Below, in pieces: positions 2,810 through 23,191 of a stretch of DNA of 35,206 nucleotides. Numbering within the stretch: position 1 is the first letter of the stretch; every line of letters begins with the position of its first letter. The translations under genes were made by a program, and so were the position numbers. A model generated the notes under the pieces. It did not search any database and was not told where the DNA came from. It was given only the letters and a program-made list of their open reading frames with translations. Source of the stretch: Kiritimatiellia bacterium (lineage in GTDB: Bacteria > Verrucomicrobiota > Kiritimatiellia > CAIQIC01 > Lenti-01); assembly GCA_017458625.1 (NCBI GenBank), contig JAFTAH010000007.1:1-35206 (forward strand), read 5' to 3'.

Positions 2810-3805
2810 TCACTCTCCCGCGAGCTCCCGCACGGCCGCCAGCCGCCGCGCCGCATGAGCGTCCGGCAGCAGCTCCGCCTGCACCTGCACCAACGCCCGC
2901 GCTCCCATCGTCTGCCGTCGCTCCCGGTTCGCCAGCAGTCCCTGGACAGCCTTCGCCATGTCGAGCGCGTCCCCCGGCGCCACCAGCAGGCCCGTCTCGC
3001 CTTCCCGCACATAATCCACCGTCCCCGTCGTCCGGGTTGTCACCACCGCCTTGCCCAGCGACATCGCCTCCAGCAGCACCACCTGTCCCGTCGAACGCTC
3101 GCTCGCCAGCAGCGGCAACGCCACCACTGCCGCCTGCCCCAGCTGCTCCAAATACGCCTCCCACGCACATTCCCGCACCACCCGCAGATTCTTCGGCACC
3201 TCCCCCGCCGGTAGCGCCTGCCCCCGCCCCACAATCGCCACAAACTCCGCCTCCGGCACCCGCCGCGCCACCTCCCAGAACGTCGCCAGGTCTCGCCCCG
3301 TCCGCCCCGCCGTCAGCACCTGCGGCCGGCCGGCCGCCCCCACCTGTTCCACCTCCTGCCGCACCTCCGCCACCGTCGTGCACAGCGGCACGAACACGAC
3401 CTTTTCCTCCGGAATCCCGAACCGCACCGCCACGCGCCGCCGCTCCGCCGAGCTGTTCACAATCACCCCCAGACTTCTTCCCGCCACCCACTGGAACAGC
3501 CGCCGCTTCGCCCGCCACGTCCACTCCCCCTCCCGCGCCTCGTCCAAAAACACCTCGCAGAGCACCTGCCGCGACCTAAGTCCCAGCACCCCGCACCCCA
3601 CTCCGTACGCCAGACTCGCCCGCGGCCCCATCGTCACCACCGCCGCCACCTCGCCCCCCCGCCGTCGCAGTTTCAGCAGCCGCCACGCCTGCCGCATCGC
3701 CCCCAGCGTGTCCGGACTCTCCCCCTCCCGGCAAATGCTCTCCGTCGCACCCTTCCAGACCTCGCTCTGGAAAAAGGCCATGTTCGTCAAGATTCTGCCG
3801 CTCAT
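2810..3805 (-). CDS. Glycosyltransferase, GT-B fold, family 4-like
   Basis: A 331-aa protein of the GT-B type. The C-terminal half has the family's nucleotide-sugar segment STGQVVLLEAMSLGKAVVTT followed by GTVDYV and GETGLLV. The usual first Glu of the E-x7-E motif is replaced by Ser, while the second Glu (LLEAM) is kept. The N-terminal acceptor half starts MSGRILTNMAFFQSEVW. I chose ATG 3805 because an AGGA stands about 7 nt upstream and the upstream extension is low-complexity Arg/Gly; a GTG at 4045 is possible but unlikely. No membrane segment is evident, so the enzyme is probably cytosolic or peripheral. Donor and acceptor cannot be told from the sequence, and no polysaccharide cluster surrounds it. 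Confidence 0.8.
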   Translation of the reverse strand: MSGRILTNMAFFQSEVWKGATESICREGESPDTLGAMRQAWRLLKLRRRGGEVAAVVTMGPRASLAYGVGCGVLGLRSRQVLCEVFLDEAREGEWTWRAKRRLFQWVAGRSLGVIVNSSAERRRVAVRFGIPEEKVVFVPLCTTVAEVRQEVEQVGAAGRPQVLTAGRTGRDLATFWEVARRVPEAEFVAIVGRGQALPAGEVPKNLRVVRECAWEAYLEQLGQAAVVALPLLASERSTGQVVLLEAMSLGKAVVTTRTTGTVDYVREGETGLLVAPGDALDMAKAVQGLLANRERRQTMGARALVQVQAELLPDAHAARRLAAVRELAGE

Positions 3806-4111
3806 GCTGGTTCCTGTTCGGTTCCGATGCGTCTGCGCCCAGACACTTTTTCCCTGTGCGCTACCCCTTGTTCGGTGCCGGGGCGCTTGCGCCCCGATTC
3901 CTCCCGCCTCCCCCGCCACGGGGCCAGTACCTTTGCGCTTGCGTCGCACGCTCCCACGTCCCGCGCCTCCGCCCCTCGCTTCGCCCCGGTCGCTGGGGTC
4001 GAGGCCCCAGCGCGTCAAGCCTCCTCCGCCCCATTGCGCGCGCACCTCCCACCGCTGGCCGCGCGGAGCCGGGGCACTCGCGCCCTGGCCCCATCGGCCC
4101 GGCCATCGGTC
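3806..4111. other. GC-rich intergenic stretch with two strong hairpins
   Basis: No gene is seen. It contains a hairpin at 3879-3896 (CGGGGCGC / GCGCCCCG) and another at 3991-4012 (CGCTGGGG / CCCCAGCG, 6-nt loop). Neither is followed by a T-run. They look like REP-type hairpins rather than terminators. Confidence 0.45.
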
Positions 4112-4269
4112 CTAGTGTCCTGGATGATAAACACTTGTTCAAACGACGGCATGGTGTTTCCCGACGAGGCGCCGGATTGAAGGCGCAGTTTCCTGCGTCG
4201 AAATCCGGCAACGACGTGGGGGAACATCAGGGCAAGTTTGGACAAGGAATTTTGAATTCAGGACACTAG
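4112..4269. mobile_element. MITE-like near-palindromic element at a CTAG site
   Basis: A 158-bp unit is bounded by CTAG at 4112-4115 and 4266-4269. Terminal inverted repeats read CTAGTGTCCTG (4112-4122) and CAGGACACTAG (4259-4269). The whole unit is an imperfect palindrome centred near 4190. The core is CCGGATT (4172-4178) facing AATCCGG (4202-4208), and the flanking arms also match, for example TTGTTCAAAC on the left against TTGTCCAAAC on the complement of the right. It encodes no protein. IS630 is known to target CTAG and duplicate the central TA, which fits the ends here, so this is probably a non-autonomous IS630-type derivative. The right end supplies the last base of the lexA stop codon. 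Confidence 0.72.
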
Positions 4270-4859
4270 TACTTGCGCACCACGGACCGGACAATGCCGC
4301 CGATAATCAGCGACCGCTTCGCCCGGAGGAACTTGTACTTCGGATTCGCCGGCTCCAGCCGAATCCCCGCCTGGTCGGGCACATAGTACTTCAGCGTCCA
4401 CTCCCCGTCCACGCATGCCACCACCACGTCATGGTCCTTCGGCTGCGCCTCGCGCTCCACGATCACCAGATCGCCTTCCAGAATCCCGGCGTCCTTCATC
4501 GAGTCGCCCCGCACGCTCAGCATGTAGTACCGATCCTGCCGTGTCGCCGGCACCAGATACTCGTCCAGCGAAATCGCCGGCGCATCCGCCAGCTGGTCTT
4601 CCTCCACCGGGAACCCTGCCACCACCGAGCCCAGCTGCCGCACTGGAGCCAGCAGCTTCGGCAACAGCGAAAGCCGCCCTTCCGTCCGCTTCACATAGCC
4701 CAGCCGTTCCAGCTTCCCAATCACCTGCGAAACCGAATTCTTCGACTTGTAGTGGAAAAGCTTGACCATCTCCTCGAACGTCGGGGCCCGGTGTTCCTGC
4801 GCCCAGAACTTGCGAAGGTCCTGCACGCGTTCCATGATGTTGATGCGGCGTAGTGCCAT
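4266..4859 (-). CDS. lexA: LexA-type SOS repressor / S24 self-cleaving protein
   Basis: A 197-aa protein with an N-terminal winged-helix region (about 8-60: FEEMVKLFHYKSKNSVSQVI, then KLERLGYV) and a C-terminal S24 autoprotease domain. The cleavage site is Ala81-Gly82 in VVAGFP, the nucleophile is Ser120 in RGDSM, and the general base is Lys157 in TLKYY. Spacing is almost the same as in E. coli LexA (84/85, 119, 156). RecA-stimulated self-cleavage and SOS derepression are the expected behaviour. The recognition helix differs from the usual LexA sequence, so the DNA target may differ too. ATG 4859 has GGAG 7 nt upstream. A promoter with a GAACGTTC palindrome in its spacer lies at 4896-4924, suggesting autoregulation. 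The TAG stop sits inside the CTAG target of the mobile element. Confidence 0.88.
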   Translation of the reverse strand: MALRRINIMERVQDLRKFWAQEHRAPTFEEMVKLFHYKSKNSVSQVIGKLERLGYVKRTEGRLSLLPKLLAPVRQLGSVVAGFPVEEDQLADAPAISLDEYLVPATRQDRYYMLSVRGDSMKDAGILEGDLVIVEREAQPKDHDVVVACVDGEWTLKYYVPDQAGIRLEPANPKYKFLRAKRSLIIGGIVRSVVRKY

Positions 4860-9598: not shown

Positions 9599-12500
9599 TT
9601 ATTCCACCGGGGAGGTGTCGACGCCAGCACCCGGGAGGACGGCGTTGTCGCCGTGGATGGGACGACCGGCGGGGTCAACCAAGCGGGCGGTCACGAAGAT
9701 CAACAGGTTCTTCTTCTGGCTGTATTCGCCATTGGAGCGGAAGAACCAGCCCAGCAGCGGGATGTCGCCCAGGATCGGAATCTTGTCGTGGAAGGTGATG
9801 ACTTCCTCGCGGATGAGACCGCCCATGACAACCGTCTGGCCATCCCAGATCACGAGCGAGGTGTTGACCTTGCTGGAACGGAAGACCGGCTGGTCCATCT
9901 TGAAGTTGTAGCTCTGAGTCTGCGCCTCAGTCAGCGACCCCATCGCGGATGCCGACTGCGTCTGGACCGTGAAGGAGGAGCCGTAGTCGATCCACTCGAC
10001 CAGGTCGCAGACTTCCGGCTCGAGCATCAGGTCGATGGTATAGCCATCGGGACCGACGGTCGGGGTGACGTTCAGGATGACGCCGGTAGGCCGCATCTGG
10101 AAGTCCGTAGGCTGGACGACCGGGCCCATGGTGACGTTACCATCGGAGTCGGTGGTCGGCTGCGTCAGGTCATAGTCGTTCGGGTAGCGGATTTCGCGAA
10201 CCACCTGAATGATGGCGGGAGCACCAGACCGGGTCGTGACCTTCGGCGCGGAAAGCAGGTCGCTGGCACCGTGCTGCGAGAGCGCGTTGATGGTCAGACC
10301 AACTTCCGGATTCGTGAGCACCGAGGCGAACGTGGCAATGTTGCCGATGGGGGCCTGGTTGACCGTATCGATCACAGACGAGGAGGTCGACGTGATGATG
10401 TCCTTCGAGTTGTCCTGGACGAAGAAGCGGTTGCCGCGGGTGACGGAGCCGGCATTCATCTGGATGGTTCCACCAGAGCCATCGTTCTTGGTGGCGATTT
10501 CCCAGTTGTCGTTCAGCGACCACTGGAAGCCGAGTTCCTCGAGGTCGTTCTGGTTGACCTCGATGAAGCGCGCCTCGATCTCAACCTGGTTGGGAATCTG
10601 GTTGATGTTCTGGAGGATACGCTCGAAGGATTCCAGATTCTCGGCAGTATTGGCGACGATCAACTGGGAGATCGTGGGGTTATAGGTGATGGAGGCACCG
10701 GTGGGGAACGGAACGCCCGCGCTCTCGAAGAACTCTCTGACATCGCCCTTCTTGAGGGTGACATCCTGGCCCATGGAGACGAAGTCGCCACCATTATCCT
10801 GCTCCAACGGCTCCTGGATGACGTTCATGAAGGACGGCTGGACGGGATACATGCGGGTGATGATGTTGCCGACAGGAGCATCCTTGCGGGTGATGATGAC
10901 GGCGGCATCCTCGATGCGGTACTTCAGCTGGGCGACTTCCGTGATGAACTGGACGGCATCGGCCATGGTGATGTTGCGCAGGTTGAGGGTGATGGGCGGA
11001 ATGCCCGAACCACCAGCATCCGCCATCGGCGCGGAGGAGCCATAGTCATCGGCCTCGCCCATGCCCCAGTCGTCATCGCCCCAGGAGCTGGAAGCGGCCG
11101 GTGCGGCAGAAGCGGTCGGAACGGCGGCGGAACCACCGACGTTGAGGATGATGTTGACGCCTTCGCCGGCCGGATCGGCGGCAATCGAGGCATCGACGAG
11201 GTAGTTCACCACGTCCGCGATGTTCGCCTGGCGGAACTCCAACTTCGGAATGACGATGTTCTTCATCTTCTCGTTGATGACAGACGCGCGCGGCTTGGTG
11301 GAGACGGCACCCTGGCCCTCGCCTTCCTCAGGAATCTCGATGGTCTGGCGGTTCGGAGGCGACCACGTGCGGCGGATATCGGCAACCATGTTCTCGCGGC
11401 GCGCATGGTATTCCATCGTCGCCAGCTTGTATTCGCTGTGCCCCAGCTTCTCGAGATAACGGAGGGCGGCACGATTGTACGGATCGATCTCGAGCATCTT
11501 CTCGAAGAGCGCTTCGGCGCGGTCGTAGTCATGCAGCGCGTACCACTGACGAGCTTCACGATAGAGATCCTTCAGGTCATCCGCCTTGGCAATCGTCCCC
11601 GCCTGCTTCTTCGGGGGCTTGGGCTGAGCTTCCTTCTCCTGGAGCTTGGTGAGCTTGGCATCCAGACGCTGGAGGACGACGCTGTCGGGCGCATAGACCA
11701 GACCATCGTCGATGTACTTGCGAGCCACTTCATACGTGGCGGGATCCTTCATGGCCTCCACGGCCTGCTTGGCCTTGATGCCGGCGAGGTCGCGGGCGAT
11801 CTGCGCGCGAATCTCCTCGTTCTGCTCGCGGGCGGGCATGCGCTCCAGAGCCTCGGCGAGACGCTCGGCTGCCAGCGGGAGCTTGCCGGCGTCGATGGCC
11901 TTGCCGCCTTCCTGGGCCAGGCGATCAGCCTCGCTCTGCTCGGCGGCGCGGCGGACGCGCTCCATCTCCTCGAGTTCCTTGGCCAGCTTCTTGGCCGCCT
12001 TGCGGTCAGTGCGCTTGTCCTCGGGCAGGGCCGGAGCCGCCTCTTCCTCTTCGACTTCCTCGACCTCCGGCACATTCTCGGCAAAGGCATCGGCGGCCTC
12101 GGCGACATCGGCGGAGAAATCATCGTCGAACCCATCAAATGCATCCGCTGCATCCGCGGGCTCGTCGGGAATCTCCGGCGCGGCATCGGCAACCGCGTCC
12201 GACGCGCCGAAAAGATCATCCTCGACTCCACCAAAGGGGTCATCGGCGATCTCCTCGGGAATGTCGGCCGGAGCGGCATCGTCCGCCGTCAGGTCGTCGA
12301 AGGCGTCGAAGGTGTCATCCACCGGGGCTTCGGCAACATCCGCGTCCAAGTCACCGAACGCGTCGCCCAAGTCGTCGGCGGCATCGGCCGTGGTCTCGGC
12401 CACGTCATCCACCACCTCTTCGACCGCAGCACCCGCGTCGGCGGAAGCGTCATCGAATTCGCCGAAAAGGTCATCCAAGCCATCGCTGGCGGCGTCTGCC

Positions 12501-12658
12501 GCCCCGGCCGGAGCATCGGCGAAAGCGTCAATGGCCTCCTCCGCAGGCGGGGCATCCTCGCCGAGGAGCGCGTCCAGGTCATCAAAGTCGTCCTGGGCGA
12601 GCGCACCCGAGGCGAAGACAAGGGCGAGTGCCATAGTTGAAGCAGTTAACCATTTCAT
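9599..12658 (-). CDS. Amuc_1098-like secretin, outer-membrane channel
   Basis: A 1019-aa secretin expected to form the outer-membrane ring of a type IV pilus-like apparatus. Order of parts: signal peptide (1-22, ending ASGALAQ); a very acidic Asp/Ala/Glu region (about 23-214) with recurring DDLFG/AFDDL-type units; a Lys/Glu-rich helical stretch; a TPR-like helix pair (about 365-415, YALHDYDRAEALFEKMLEIDP); an STN-like domain (LEFRQANIADVVNYLVDAS, then LRNITMADAVQF); a secretin N-domain (ITYNPTISQLIVANTAENLE); and the secretin beta domain (about 775-992), with SAPKVTTRSG, PTGVILNVTP and DKIPILGDIPLLGWFF. ATG 12658 has AAGGAGG 8 nt upstream and starts a clean signal peptide; the in-frame start at 12724 does not. 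It is the last gene of the operon and is followed by a strong terminator. The acidic N-terminal region is unusual for secretins. Confidence 0.93.
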   Translation of the reverse strand: MKWLTASTMALALVFASGALAQDDFDDLDALLGEDAPPAEEAIDAFADAPAGAADAASDGLDDLFGEFDDASADAGAAVEEVVDDVAETTADAADDLGDAFGDLDADVAEAPVDDTFDAFDDLTADDAAPADIPEEIADDPFGGVEDDLFGASDAVADAAPEIPDEPADAADAFDGFDDDFSADVAEAADAFAENVPEVEEVEEEEAAPALPEDKRTDRKAAKKLAKELEEMERVRRAAEQSEADRLAQEGGKAIDAGKLPLAAERLAEALERMPAREQNEEIRAQIARDLAGIKAKQAVEAMKDPATYEVARKYIDDGLVYAPDSVVLQRLDAKLTKLQEKEAQPKPPKKQAGTIAKADDLKDLYREARQWYALHDYDRAEALFEKMLEIDPYNRAALRYLEKLGHSEYKLATMEYHARRENMVADIRRTWSPPNRQTIEIPEEGEGQGAVSTKPRASVINEKMKNIVIPKLEFRQANIADVVNYLVDASIAADPAGEGVNIILNVGGSAAVPTASAAPAASSSWGDDDWGMGEADDYGSSAPMADAGGSGIPPITLNLRNITMADAVQFITEVAQLKYRIEDAAVIITRKDAPVGNIITRMYPVQPSFMNVIQEPLEQDNGGDFVSMGQDVTLKKGDVREFFESAGVPFPTGASITYNPTISQLIVANTAENLESFERILQNINQIPNQVEIEARFIEVNQNDLEELGFQWSLNDNWEIATKNDGSGGTIQMNAGSVTRGNRFFVQDNSKDIITSTSSSVIDTVNQAPIGNIATFASVLTNPEVGLTINALSQHGASDLLSAPKVTTRSGAPAIIQVVREIRYPNDYDLTQPTTDSDGNVTMGPVVQPTDFQMRPTGVILNVTPTVGPDGYTIDLMLEPEVCDLVEWIDYGSSFTVQTQSASAMGSLTEAQTQSYNFKMDQPVFRSSKVNTSLVIWDGQTVVMGGLIREEVITFHDKIPILGDIPLLGWFFRSNGEYSQKKNLLIFVTARLVDPAGRPIHGDNAVLPGAGVDTSPVE

Positions 12659-12753
12659 GAGGAATTCCTCCTTGCGGACAGACCTGAGGCCGGCAGGCGG
12701 GGTCTTGTGGGTTATCGGTGTCATTCTAAATCGTTGGGTGGGTTCGTGGCGGA

Positions 12754-13905
12754 CTAGTTGCCGAAGATGTCATCGCCCGGAGCGGCCCCCGGAGGCGGCG
12801 GGAACGGAGACAACGTCGGGGCAGGCGCAGGACGGGCCGGAGCCGCCATGGAAGTCCCGGGGGGCGGCATGGCGGCAGCCGGATCGCCCGAGCGCTCCGC
12901 CTCAGTGATCTTGGGAATATTGATGGTCTTCATGGTCTCCACGTCTTGAATTATCACGTTTTGACCCTTGATGTCAACGACCTTGTACTGCTTGCCGTTG
13001 TCGGCCAGCGTGAAGCTGTCACCTTTCCGCTTGACGGGAAGCTTGGTGCGGTTGATGAGGGAGACGAAGAGGATGGCAATCTCGTTTTCCGTGACAGGAT
13101 GTCCCTGGACAAGATTGACGACACGGTTGTCGGAGACGCGGATGAGCGTGAGGGTCGGGCCATTTTCGCCATTGGGATCGAACTTGGCGATCTTGTAGCC
13201 CAAGGTGACGTCATTGAGCTTGACGAAGAGCGTCGGCGCCTTTTCGCTCTGCATGTTGAGCTGGAAGCGAAGCGACTTGTCGGCAAGTTCGGAAACGGAG
13301 ACGAAACGCAGATAGAAGGGAATGGGTCGGGTGGCCCAGACACGGAGTTTCACCACGGGATCAGGCCGGGAAGCCGGGTCGCGCAGGTCGGTGCCCGCCT
13401 GATATTCCTCGATGTTGGTGAAGCCATCGTTGTCCAGGTCGCCATAGGCATCCGCCGGATTCTGCGGATCAAGTCCCAATGTGAGCTCAAGCTTGTCGGG
13501 CATGCCATCCTGATCGGTGTCGATGGTATCAGGATTAATGATCTCGGGCTGGTCTTGCAGGCAGAACGGGCACTTGAGCGCCTCGTAGGGGATGGGCTTG
13601 CCGCACTTGACGCAGGCAACGCGGCGTTCCGAAACGAAGGAGCGCTTCGGATTCGCCAGGGGCTTCGTCGCCGTCTTGCGGGCATTGGCTAGCATGGTGT
13701 CGAACTGGAGCGTGTCCTGCAGGGCGTAGGCTTCTCCGCCGAGTTGGGTGTTGGCCACAAAGTTGTCGTTGGAGCCACGCTGGTCGATGATCAGGCGCGA
13801 GAGGAAGGCGCAGGAGGCGATGAGGAGGACAAGCAGGACGAGAAGAATGACCTTCTCGTAGTTGTTCTTGAGAGGACTGCTGGACGGCTGGGCGTTTTGG
13901 CTCAT
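12754..13905 (-). CDS. Amuc_1099-like pilus-system protein with zinc ribbon and Ca-binding repeats
   Basis: A 383-aa bitopic membrane protein. One membrane helix (about 18-38) places most of the chain in the periplasm. A four-Cys zinc-ribbon-like motif follows (C98, C101, C112, C115: CVKCGKP and KCPFC). Next come two thrombospondin type 3/EF-hand-like loops, DTDQDGMPDKLE (129-140) and DLDNDGFTNIEE (156-167), which normally bind calcium. A beta-rich region and a Pro/Ala-rich tail complete it. The placement between the Amuc_1100-like and secretin genes matches Amuc_1099; the exact role is unknown. The start overlaps the stop of the upstream gene by ATGA, so translation is probably coupled. A periplasmic linker that senses metal or assembly state is a guess only. 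Confidence 0.82.
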   Translation of the reverse strand: MSQNAQPSSSPLKNNYEKVILLVLLVLLIASCAFLSRLIIDQRGSNDNFVANTQLGGEAYALQDTLQFDTMLANARKTATKPLANPKRSFVSERRVACVKCGKPIPYEALKCPFCLQDQPEIINPDTIDTDQDGMPDKLELTLGLDPQNPADAYGDLDNDGFTNIEEYQAGTDLRDPASRPDPVVKLRVWATRPIPFYLRFVSVSELADKSLRFQLNMQSEKAPTLFVKLNDVTLGYKIAKFDPNGENGPTLTLIRVSDNRVVNLVQGHPVTENEIAILFVSLINRTKLPVKRKGDSFTLADNGKQYKVVDIKGQNVIIQDVETMKTINIPKITEAERSGDPAAAMPPPGTSMAAPARPAPAPTLSPFPPPPGAAPGDDIFGN

Positions 13906-14999
13906 GGCGTAGGCTCCTGCTGGTCTTCGGCGCTGGCGAGGTCGAGGAAGCGGTAGACGTCGACCTTCATGGAGATGACAGGAAGTTCGCGGCCAGCGGA
14001 GACGCGGAGGTCGCGCGGGAGAATGGCAGGGGCCTCCTTCTGGGCGACCGGCGCGGTCGGCGAACCCACCGCCCGGAAGCCACCGGCGGAAGCGGCCGCG
14101 AAGGGAGCGGGCGCGCCCCCCATGGCCGGAGCGCCCAGGCCATTAGCCTCTCCGGCAGGCTCCTCCTCGGTCCCCTGCGGCGAGAGGATGCTGGGACGCG
14201 CAGCATTGACCACTTCCAGCGCGGTGACCACGGCGAACGGCTGGCCCTGCGCCAGCTTGTCGAGTACCTTCTGGAGGGCGGCATCGGAGGCCTTGAACGA
14301 GAACGTGTAGGACTCGCGCGTGAAGAGGCCGTCCGGATCCTTGTAGAGGGCGCCGGGAGTGGCCTGGGCAACCTCGTCGTCGCCACCCCGGTTGCGACGG
14401 CGGCTCGAGCGGCGCGAGTCTTCCTCGGACGTCGAACTGGCGAGAGCGGCGGCGGTCTCGAATTCGGTGCGGGTCACACCTATCATCTCGGCAATGCCCG
14501 CATCGTAGAGGGCCAGGCAGATGGCCTTGATGTCCTGCATCTGGCAAATGACGCGCGGCAGGTCGTTTTCGCTGGGCGGCGTACCCGTCTCGTACAGGCC
14601 AAAGCCGAACAGCTTCTGCACGGAAGTGCCAGCCGGCGGCGCAATCACGATGCCACGCTTGCGGCCCCCGTAGAGGGTGTAGAGGGTCTCGTTGTATTCG
14701 GTGAGGAAGCGGTCGCGGGTGATGTCGCCATCGGAAGGCTGGCCCTTGCCCAGCTCCTGGGTAAGGTCGACGAGGTAGTCCTTGAAATCCTTGACCTGCG
14801 TCTGCATGGTCTTCGCGTTCTGGCGGGACGGGAAGACCGGGCGGACCTGGAGCTTGTGGAGCTGCGCATTGGAGGAGACGATGGCTTCCCCGGCCTCGTC
14901 ATAGGCCTGGTAGGAGGCAAAGACCATGTAGGCGAGGCCGATGGCCAGCACGCCGACGATGGATGCGCCGACGATGACGGGGGTGTTCTTGCTGCTCAT
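13902..14999 (-). CDS. Amuc_1100-like pilus protein (PilO-like)
   Basis: A 365-aa protein with one N-terminal membrane helix (about 7-29), a coiled-coil stretch (about 30-90), and a periplasmic body broken by a Ser/Arg/Asp-rich linker (SSTSEEDSRRSSRRR, about 188-202). Its locus position and layout match Amuc_1100 (about 317 aa), the Akkermansia envelope protein reported to act on host TLR2 and to resemble PilO/GspM-type folds. In this apparatus it should pair with the PilN-like domain of the fusion encoded upstream. The start ATG overlaps the PilM-N stop by ATGA (14996-14999), and the stop overlaps the next start in the same way. No residues important for host signalling can be judged from sequence alone. 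Confidence 0.82.
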   Translation of the reverse strand: MSSKNTPVIVGASIVGVLAIGLAYMVFASYQAYDEAGEAIVSSNAQLHKLQVRPVFPSRQNAKTMQTQVKDFKDYLVDLTQELGKGQPSDGDITRDRFLTEYNETLYTLYGGRKRGIVIAPPAGTSVQKLFGFGLYETGTPPSENDLPRVICQMQDIKAICLALYDAGIAEMIGVTRTEFETAAALASSTSEEDSRRSSRRRNRGGDDEVAQATPGALYKDPDGLFTRESYTFSFKASDAALQKVLDKLAQGQPFAVVTALEVVNAARPSILSPQGTEEEPAGEANGLGAPAMGGAPAPFAAASAGGFRAVGSPTAPVAQKEAPAILPRDLRVSAGRELPVISMKVDVYRFLDLASAEDQQEPTP

Positions 15000-16774
15000 G
15001 ATTCCTCCGTGGATGCGGCGGCGGCATCGCGCGCGGCGACCGGCTGGGGCTCGTCGTGGGCGAGGGGAACGCGGATGGAGAAGGTGAAGGTCGGGGCACC
15101 GGGCATCCCGAGCTGCTGCCAAGCAATTTCCGTCTTGTCCGAGCTGAAGAGCGGAGATTCCCGCAGGGCATCGCGGAAGGCCTTGATGGTGGCGTCCGGA
15201 TTCTTGGCCACATCGGTGTAGCCAATGCCCGTGACCGAAATCCCGAGCAGGGCGCGCGGATTGCTGGGGTCTGGCGGAGCCTCCGTCTTGGGGGCCTCCC
15301 GCTGACGCCGACGGGCGGCGCGGTCATCCTCCTCCTCGACCACGATGGTGCGCTCGGGATTCAGCGGAGCCACCTGGCTCAGCCATACGCCGTCGGGCAG
15401 GCGGCTCGTGATCTCGGCCAGCATCTCTCGCCAGGCCCCGCGGCCATCCTCGATGACGGCCAGCCGCTCGACCTGCGCCTTGAGCTGCGCGACCTCGGTC
15501 TCGGTCTCGGCCAGGCTGGCCTCGTCGGCCTTGAGCTGGTGAACACGGCTGTCGACCTTTTCCTGGGCGGTCTGGGTGCTGGCGGCGACCGTGCGATAGC
15601 CGGCAATCCAGAGGCCCAAGGTAATCAGCAGCGTGGCAGCGGAAATCGCGAAATACGGCAGCTTCTGCTTGAACTTCTTCTCCTCCTCGTACACGGAAGG
15701 GATGAGGTTGAGGGCAACGGGGCAGGTGCGGCACTTGCGCAGGGCGAGGCCTACCAGAGGACCCAGCTCGCACGCATGGGCGGCAATCTGGTCGGTGGGA
15801 ATCGCCTCGGAGACGGCGACGTTGTTGAAGGGATTGAAGTAGTCGACGTCGAGGCGCAGCTTTTCGCGGAGGAAGCTGTCGGCATAGGGAATGACGGAGG
15901 AGCCGCCGGTGAGGAGAATCAGACTCGGGGTCTTGCCGCCTTGCTGGCCGCGATAGAAGTTGATGGAGCGGTTGAGCTCGAGGTGGAGGCGGGTCATCAT
16001 GGCGCGGACGGCCTTGGAGACCTTGTCCGTGGTCTCGCTCTGGGGGGCCTCGTAGGGACCGCCGAAGCCGACGTAGGCGTGCGCCTTCTTGAGGGCCTCG
16101 GCATCGTCGTAGGAAACCTCGAACTCCTGCTGGATGGCCTGGGAGATCTGGTTGCCCGCGACCGGCACGCTACGGGAGAAGATGCGACCGGCCTCGAGGA
16201 AGATGAGATCCGTCGAGCGGGCGCCGATGTCGACCAGCAGCGTGCACTCGGGCAGGTTGTCGTAGTTGTAGCGGACGGCGTTGTAGAGCGCCATCGGGGC
16301 GACATCGACCATCTCCGGCTTGAGCCCGGCGAAGGTCACGCAGTCGCAAATCTTCGCGATGTCCTCGGACTTGATGGCGACAAGCATGACTTCCGCGTCG
16401 CCGTCCTTGCCGGTGACAATCTGGTAGTCCCAGACGACCTCGTTGAGCGGGAACGGAATGTTCTGCTGGGCCTCATAGCGAATCAGCTCGGTCACCTTGT
16501 CGGGCGTGGTGGGCGTGAGCTTGACGAACTTGGAAAAGATTGAATGGCCGGAGATGGAGATCTGCACGGGCCCGGGCTTGCAGCCGGACTCGTCGATCAG
16601 CGAGTGGATGGCCTGGATGATGTACTGCGAACGGTCTTCCTCGGACTGGGGGTCGAGGCCGAGGTCGGTGACCGCGTAGCGGGTCATCTCGAGGCCGCCG
16701 CGCGTCTCGACGAACTCGGCGAGCTTGAGGTTGTAGGCCCCGATGTCGAGGGTCAGGATGGGCTCTTTAGCCAT
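14996..16774 (-). CDS. Amuc_1101-like PilM-PilN fusion protein
   Basis: A 592-aa protein joining two type IV pilus alignment proteins. Residues 1-350 are a PilM-type actin-like ATPase (LTLDIGAYNLKLAE at 7-20, LLVDIGARSTDL at 179-190, LLTGGSSVIPY at 287-297). Then comes LNLIPSVYEEEKK (355-367), the motif by which PilN N-termini bind PilM in classical systems, here inside one chain. A membrane helix (about 373-392), a coiled coil (about 400-445) and a PilN-like periplasmic domain follow, with an Arg/Glu-rich linker (DDRAARRRQREAPK). ATG 16774 has AGGA about 7 nt upstream. It ties a cytoplasmic ATPase ring to the periplasmic arm. No assembly ATPase gene is nearby. Confidence 0.88.
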   Translation of the reverse strand: MAKEPILTLDIGAYNLKLAEFVETRGGLEMTRYAVTDLGLDPQSEEDRSQYIIQAIHSLIDESGCKPGPVQISISGHSIFSKFVKLTPTTPDKVTELIRYEAQQNIPFPLNEVVWDYQIVTGKDGDAEVMLVAIKSEDIAKICDCVTFAGLKPEMVDVAPMALYNAVRYNYDNLPECTLLVDIGARSTDLIFLEAGRIFSRSVPVAGNQISQAIQQEFEVSYDDAEALKKAHAYVGFGGPYEAPQSETTDKVSKAVRAMMTRLHLELNRSINFYRGQQGGKTPSLILLTGGSSVIPYADSFLREKLRLDVDYFNPFNNVAVSEAIPTDQIAAHACELGPLVGLALRKCRTCPVALNLIPSVYEEEKKFKQKLPYFAISAATLLITLGLWIAGYRTVAASTQTAQEKVDSRVHQLKADEASLAETETEVAQLKAQVERLAVIEDGRGAWREMLAEITSRLPDGVWLSQVAPLNPERTIVVEEEDDRAARRRQREAPKTEAPPDPSNPRALLGISVTGIGYTDVAKNPDATIKAFRDALRESPLFSSDKTEIAWQQLGMPGAPTFTFSIRVPLAHDEPQPVAARDAAAASTEES

Positions 16775-21598: not shown

Positions 21599-23191
21599 CT
21601 AGTTGTTGTCCTGGGAGGCGTCGTAGAGGAGTTCGCCGGTGGTACCGTGGGTGATGCGGAAGTCCTCGATGTGGATGTTGGCGTCGGAGACGAAGGTGAG
21701 CTGGGTGCCGCAACGGCGTTCGAGGTCGATGAGCACCTGCTCGTCCTCGCGGCGGAGGCGGTCCATGATCATCGGGTTGACCGAGATGCGCAGGGGCAGG
21801 TCGCCGCGGTGGGCGTTGCGCTTGAGCACCTCGATGATGCGGCGCTGGATGCGGACGGACATCGAGAGGGTGGAGAGCACCTTGCCGCGGCCGTGGCAGT
21901 AGGGGCAGTCGGAGAAGGAGGCGGCGCGGAGGCTCTCCTCCATGCGCTGGCGGGTCATCTCGATGAGGCCGAGGGCGGAGACGGGCAGTACGTTGGTGCG
22001 GGCCTTGTCCTTGCGGAGCGCCTCCTTGAGCGTGTGGTGGAGGGTGGCCTGGTTCTTGCGGGACTTCATGTCGATGAAGTCGATGACCACCAGCCCGCCG
22101 ACGTTGCGGAGGCGCAGCTGCCGGGCGATCTCGATGGCAGCCTCGATGTTGACCTCGAGGATGGAGTCCTCCTGGGTCTGCCCGCCCTTGTGGCGCCCGG
22201 TGTTGACGTCGACGGCGACCAGCGCCTCGGTCTCGTCGAAGTAGAGGTAGGCGCCGGACTTCAGCCACACCTTGCGACGGTAGACGTTGTTGAGCTGGCG
22301 CTCGGCGTCGAAGTGCTCGAAGATCGGGGTCGGGCCGTCGTAGAGCTTGATCTTGTTGCGGGCGCCGCGCGAGATGCGGGAGGTCAGGTCGCGGGTGCGG
22401 TCGAAGGTGTCGCGGTCGTCGATGACGACCCGGTCGATGTCCTCGGTCAGGTAGTCGCGGACGACGCGCTCGACGAGGTCGGGCTCGCGGTAGAGCAGGG
22501 CGGGGGCGGGCGAGTTCTTGATGCCGTTCTCGATCTGCTGCCAGACGTCGAGCAGGCCGCGCAGGTCCTGGACGAACGAGGTGGGGCGGGTGCCCACGCC
22601 GGCGGTGCGGATGATGAAGCCGAGGTTGGTGGGAATGGGCAGGCGGGCAAGCACCTTCTTGAGGCGGTCGCGCTCCTCGGGGTCGGACACCTTGCGGGAG
22701 ACGCCCTTGAGCTTGGAGCCGGGCATCATGACGAGGTAGCGCCCGGGGATGGAGAGGTTGGCGGTGACGCGCGGCCCCTTGGTGGAGATGGCCCCCTTGG
22801 AGACCTGGACGATGATCTCGGAGCCGGGCGGATAGAGCTTGGCCATCTCGCCGGGCTGCATCTTCTTGCGGCGGTTGCGGCCAGGCTGGACGCCCTCCTC
22901 GGCCTCGAGCCGCGCGGCGTCCTCGGGAATCATGTCCCAGTAGTGGATGAAGGCGTTCTTCTTGAGGCCGATGTCGACGAAGGCGGCCTGGAGCCCGTCC
23001 TCGAGGTTCTGGATGCGGCCCTTGTAGACGGAGCCGACGATGCGCTCCTCGCTGGGGCGCTCGATGAAGTACTCCTCGAGGTGGCCCTCCTCGAGGACGG
23101 CGACTCGAGTCTCAAGGCTTTCGGCGTTGACGATGATTTCGCGCTTGACCTTCTTGCGGAGGCCGAGCATCTGGAGGAACTTGTCTAGCAT
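21599..23191 (-). CDS. rng: Ribonuclease E/G family endoribonuclease
   Basis: A 530-aa protein, the size of RNase G rather than full RNase E: there is no long disordered degradosome scaffold. An S1-type RNA-binding region lies at about 48-145 (GSVYKGRIQNLEDGLQAAFVDIG). The DNase I-like catalytic part carries the Mg-binding aspartates at 328 (VAVDVNTG) and 371 (VVIDFIDM). The zinc-link CPYCHGRG uses Cys429 and Cys432, which join dimers into tetramers in this family. The enzyme processes rRNA and tRNA precursors and turns over mRNA. ATG 23191 has AAAGG about 7 nt upstream. A possible minus-strand -10 box TATGAT (23319-23324) lies upstream, with a weak -35. It sits next to the mre/rodA cluster, a common arrangement for rng. 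Confidence 0.92.
   Translation of the reverse strand: MLDKFLQMLGLRKKVKREIIVNAESLETRVAVLEEGHLEEYFIERPSEERIVGSVYKGRIQNLEDGLQAAFVDIGLKKNAFIHYWDMIPEDAARLEAEEGVQPGRNRRKKMQPGEMAKLYPPGSEIIVQVSKGAISTKGPRVTANLSIPGRYLVMMPGSKLKGVSRKVSDPEERDRLKKVLARLPIPTNLGFIIRTAGVGTRPTSFVQDLRGLLDVWQQIENGIKNSPAPALLYREPDLVERVVRDYLTEDIDRVVIDDRDTFDRTRDLTSRISRGARNKIKLYDGPTPIFEHFDAERQLNNVYRRKVWLKSGAYLYFDETEALVAVDVNTGRHKGGQTQEDSILEVNIEAAIEIARQLRLRNVGGLVVIDFIDMKSRKNQATLHHTLKEALRKDKARTNVLPVSALGLIEMTRQRMEESLRAASFSDCPYCHGRGKVLSTLSMSVRIQRRIIEVLKRNAHRGDLPLRISVNPMIMDRLRREDEQVLIDLERRCGTQLTFVSDANIHIEDFRITHGTTGELLYDASQDNN

Follow-up and report, generated by a model that had tools for sequence, protein, structure and literature searches.

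The element that follows lexA in this Kiritimatiellia genome is very probably a non-autonomous MITE of the IS630/Tc1 kind, inserted at the native stop codon of the gene. It represents a new MITE family derived from IS630/Tc1, which is moderately interesting and ordinary in kind. Its CTAG target and terminal G rebuild TAG on both sides of an insertion, and this offers a mobile element a simple route onto essential genes without harm. The window, i.e., the whole stretch of DNA that was analyzed, is 35,206 nucleotides long, and the features relevant to the element are listed in table 1.

Structure of the element and the lexA stop codon

The sequence CTAGTGTCCTGG...TTCAGGACACTAG was found at positions 4112-4269 of the window. 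CTAGTGTCCTG is present at both ends in inverted orientation (starting at 4112 and 4259), and no further occurrence was detected in the window with up to one mismatch. The outermost bases, C4112 and G4269, belong to the target, in agreement with the matching ends and the CTAG on both sides described by the initial annotation. At 152 bp the MITE proper is well under the size of about 300 bp that bounds elements of this type lacking a transposase gene, and it has no room for a transposase; its terminal inverted repeats are represented by the GTGTCCTG ends, which are inverted in most copies.

Table 1. Coordinates of the element, its target bases and the adjacent genes in the window
Feature	Position	Strand	Remarks
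MITE proper, 152 bp	4115..4266	+	Ends GTGTCCTGGATG... / ...GAATTCAGGACAC; single long imperfect hairpin
Left TA copy of duplicated target	4113..4114	.	Complete copies keep TA at the ends; outer bases can vary
Right TA copy of duplicated target	4267..4268	.	Also supplies TA to the TAG stop of lexA
C of CTAG target	4112..4112	.	Left target base
G of CTAG target	4269..4269	.	Right target base
lexA, 197 aa	4266..4859	-	Ends ...VVRKY, TAG at 4268-4266; Peptidase_S24 domain
Glycosyltransferase gene (predicted start)	2810..4045	-	Pfam Glyco_trans_1_4; same direction as lexA, element between the two

For the plus strand, folding gave -90.4 kcal/mol, where shuffled sequences averaged -45.4 (z -11.5); the minus strand gave -65.9 kcal/mol (z -7.3), and no shuffle reached either value. 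When the element was compared with its own complement by self-BLAST, the arms matched at approximately 68%. A repeat search with ungapped seeds returned no inverted repeat, which is an effect of the seeds, as both folding and self-BLAST reveal one. The element had been described as fully palindromic: the long hairpin, the inverted ends and the strong fold hold, whereas arms that match at only about 68% make the palindrome an imperfect one.

Predicted RNA stability is very unequal between the strands of the hairpin (-89 vs -64 kcal/mol), and related copies show the same direction of difference. One strand folds better in the copies of this genome and of a relative from another genus (G001), and also in a Proteobacterial set aligned by the ends, with a single exception (L143). 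This strand difference comes in part from the difference between the left and right IS ends.

As proposed previously, the TAG stop of lexA consists of a TA copy and the terminal base of the element (4268-4266), and it was rebuilt because the element starts with G. LexA orthologs of the same family (58-63% identity) end with VIRKY at the same position, some with one extra residue, and their genes have TGA, TAG or TAA as the stop, followed by no element; one of these genes (L097) itself ends in CTAG. Since the orthologs stop where LexA does, at ordinary stop codons and without the element, the lexA stop is native, and the claim that the insertion left LexA unchanged is borne out. The same orthologs provide the empty sites that had been sought in relatives, in a comparison between genera. 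The element forms the start of the lexA 3' untranslated region, where it is probably close to neutral. Elsewhere in the window, type IV pilus genes (PilM, secretin) and an RNase E/G family gene were identified by Pfam on the minus strand (9599-16774 and 21599-23191).

Genomic copies, target site and stop codons

A search of the host genome (a 2.69-Mb draft in 165 contigs, 80% complete) detected 40 scored copies, mostly 96-100% identical. The exact end CTAGTGTCCTG occurs 53 times, compared with 0 for the reversed control. Many contigs stop inside the element, as expected because repeats break short-read assembly. Leaving out one duplicated flank and two unusable flanks, we counted 31 left-end and 31 right-end distinct junctions, which correspond to at least 31 dispersed insertions. 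This copy number rules out chance as the source of the element, and it answers the genome-wide search suggested by the initial annotation.

The predicted TA duplication was also observed, TA being present at both ends of 17 of the 18 near-complete copies. Flanks with TA retained read CTAG, TTAG or CTAA. Two copies (C136 and C145) keep TA but have an outer base that deviates from CTAG at just one of their two sides, indicating that TA is the duplicated unit and CTAG the preferred target.

We also observed a second type of hairpin repeat of approximately 140-200 bp, with ends CTAGAGCGGTTT... / ...GCAAAATGCTCTAG and CTAG junctions, which adjoins the element in about eight copies. It was seen beside the element at L004, L016 (just before 1501), L006, L009, L050 and L051, and some of these pairs are linked by CTAGATGT-like arrays.

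The position at lexA is one of many of its kind: 20 of the 62 junctions form the TAG stop of a coding-like ORF, including those of glyA, proS, ffh, lpxA, an ftsQ-like gene and lexA. Genes with Pfam support at junctions encode GlyA (SHMT), ProS, Ffh (SRP54), a NUDIX protein, a CNNM/CBS protein, an FtsQ-type POTRA protein and an LpxA-like acyltransferase. C-termini are intact at the other junctions too; in proS, the match to the ProRS-C_1 domain runs through to the final residue ahead of the stop.

Of the 267 called genes, 133 end in TAG, which makes it the most frequent stop codon of the genome, and 65, or about a quarter, end in CTAG; these gene calls are approximate and derive from a codon model seeded on Pfam-supported genes. 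The landing on the lexA stop, which is not unique, is largely explained by this frequency together with the CTAG target preference. CTAG itself is under-represented, with 231 sites away from elements vs 525 expected (Markov estimate; 351 kb sampled), and 59-63 of the 231 are stops. The background rate of stops per side was 12.8% when all CTAG sites were counted and 17.7% when only non-coding sites were. The stop-codon excess at junctions is about 1.8-fold over the non-coding CTAG background (P about 0.007), a value that may be inflated because 71 of 254 CTAG sites cluster within 20 bp and gene calls are approximate. The excess is thus modest, and we attribute the placement at stop codons to a preferred target and to the survival of insertions that do no harm. 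When the element inserts on a C-TAG stop, the protein stays intact because the initial G of the element and CTAG keep TAG on both sides; such insertions would survive selection, and those inside genes would mostly be lost.

Alternatively, the hairpin may serve the upstream gene as a portable 3' end, acting as an RNase processing site, transcript stabilizer or attenuator, with its placement selected and not merely tolerated. The proportion of junctions that end coding ORFs, set against the 17.7% at non-coding CTAG sites, points in this direction, as do the retention of the hairpin with compensatory changes in another genus (G001, see below) and the consistently better folding of one strand. However, the copies show no preferred orientation with respect to the upstream gene (12/31 vs 8/31, P = 0.42), the element has no terminator signature, many copies lie away from stops, and the excess has the weaknesses given above. 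We consider such selected placement unlikely. The broader proposal that hairpin MITEs at CTAG are portable 3' ends in general, and that TAG stops of essential genes are favored since the hairpin sets the end or stability of the mRNA, appears somewhat less likely still; if true, an IS630 transposase would have spread 3'-UTR regulation as a layer across the whole genome.

The initial annotation had offered terminator or mRNA stabilizer as possible roles. The terminator role found no support, as the region 3950-4400 contains no promoter-like site, no terminator-like site (0 found) and no T-tract; no credible Rfam match was obtained within the element. Should the element be transcribed, RNases (e.g., RNase III or RNase E) may cleave its hairpin, and processing of this sort at a 3' hairpin is plausible by analogy with NEMIS or ERIC. 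RNase III cleaves transcripts containing Correia elements, and in Yersinia ERIC in one orientation lowers the stability of the upstream transcript; for ERIC at gene 3' ends, the best-studied comparable case, the reported effect is destabilization (PMC10969869, PMC2229807).

IS630-type ends and distribution

The preferred reading, a MITE of IS630/Tc1 origin, rests on the ends as well as on the at least 31 insertions and the TA duplication. IS630 is described as preferring TA in CTAG (Tenzen and Ohtsubo 1991, as cited in PMC2170065), and the element has both the TA duplication and the CTAG preference. The host genome carries IS630-family transposases (NCBIfam). One CTAGTGT-ended element (C133) is 1188 bp long with ends CTAGTGTTCCG and CTAGTGTCTCG, and a multi-copy type (C128) has ends CTAGTGTACTGAATT and CTAGTCTACTGAATT, which agree with the MITE right end at 20 of 26 positions. 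An IS630-type transposase with the same ends as the element had been anticipated; the genome contains IS630 with CTAGTGT ends, but no transposase gene with exact CTAGTGTCCTG ends was found in this assembly, whose completeness is 80% and whose contigs break at repeats.

Ends shared with an autonomous IS630-family element were found in Comamonas composti, whose 1169-bp IS630 (L135) has a 383-codon frame and matching ends on both sides. The right end of the MITE agrees with the left end of L135 at 23 of 26 positions; the first 20 lay in the search pattern, and the independent evidence is the extension and the second end. In L135, C133 and C128 (loci L135 862-2030, L060 and L062), the transposase itself ends at a TAG to which the right end and the CTAG target both contribute, so that the same geometry of CTAG and terminal G supplies the stop of three CTAGTGT-ended transposase genes examined. 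IS870 reportedly needs CTAG for the same reason, its end and the target together supplying the stop codon. One copy of the MITE (C164; L013, around 1501-1677) directly abuts an IS630 of the C128 type at its CTAG end. These features are consistent with a model in which a DDE transposase encoded elsewhere would recognize the CTAGTGTCCTG ends, cut the element out and insert it at TA within CTAG, duplicating TA; since the element starts with G, insertion into CTAG would keep TAG on both sides.

Transposase groups other than IS630 also use CTAG targets, such as the IS427 group of the IS5 family. Mobilization by a different class that uses CTAG or TA, with convergent likeness to IS630 ends, is nevertheless very improbable: the L135 match covers both ends and continues beyond the search pattern, and NCBIfam assigns every CTAGTGT-ended transposase examined to IS630. 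A precedent for it would be MITEPsy1, which targets CTAG or YTAA and has been tentatively tied to the IS5-family ISPsy2 (PMC3189936).

Among 16 other genomes of the family, clear relatives of the element were detected only in G001 (three copies, 80-88% identity). These copies keep the hairpin, with six pairs changed on both sides (e.g., U-A to C-G at alignment columns 46-117). One of them follows a reading frame ending GIPSSKGVL-TAG, presumably the C-terminus of HisB.

An exact search for the element core in genome contigs gave no match, and neither did searches of viral contigs and plasmids for the element. CTAGTGTCCTG itself matched in two distant genomes, where no paired end was seen on reading; these matches look like chance. 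A degenerate end pattern matched 18 loci among 84,980 genomes. Eleven of them have an inverted partner end at a distance of 100-276 bp, and one more pairs at 49 bp and looks like two ends lying close together. Loci with paired ends occur in Proteobacteria, Planctomycetota, Candidatus Kuenenia, Acidobacteria, Chloroflexi and Verrucomicrobiota. The presence of MITEs with shared ends in several phyla points to an IS630 subgroup that may have produced hairpin MITEs repeatedly, often of about 165 bp. Four MITEs of 163-166 bp from various Proteobacteria (L128, L129, L137 and L140) are 71-91% identical to each other along their length, and they share the ends of the window element and not its interior.

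That the element is instead an immobile intrinsic terminator or conserved lexA regulatory structure, as a strong predicted hairpin directly after a stop codon might suggest, is hardly credible, since it is contradicted by the number of insertions beside unrelated genes and by the empty orthologous sites at lexA, and the element lacks a T-tract and an Rfam match. The initial annotation had named an absence of other copies together with conservation at lexA in distant relatives as the outcome favoring a regulatory structure, and the opposite was observed.

Comparison with known systems

Several known repeats resemble the element in part. It is set apart from Correia/NEMIS, ERIC and RUP by sizes and hosts taken from the literature, and by its lack of an Rfam match. 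Correia/NEMIS elements of Neisseria have a similar size (forms of 107 and 155 bp), TA ends, a palindromic RNA hairpin and locations near genes; they differ in end sequences and host, and RNase III processing has been shown for them. ERIC of enterobacteria (127 bp) is likewise palindromic, duplicates TA and can sit at gene 3' ends in mRNA, but has another sequence, and its effect on upstream transcript stability in Yersinia was shown in one orientation, whereas the element described here has no orientation bias. MITEPsy1 of Pseudomonas syringae is a MITE inserting at CTAG or YTAA; unlike our element, it is 100 bp long with a reported 4-nt duplication and a possible IS5-family origin. RUP of Streptococcus pneumoniae is a MITE with IS630-type ends (IS630-Spn1) and a TA target that lies near other repeats and IS elements, although it is 107 bp long and has other ends and another host. 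The CTAGTGT-ended IS630 elements (L135, and C133 and C128 of the same genome) share with the element both the TA target in CTAG and the CTAGTGT ends. L135 and C133 are approximately 1.17-1.19 kb long and encode a transposase, whereas the element encodes none and no similarity was seen in its interior.
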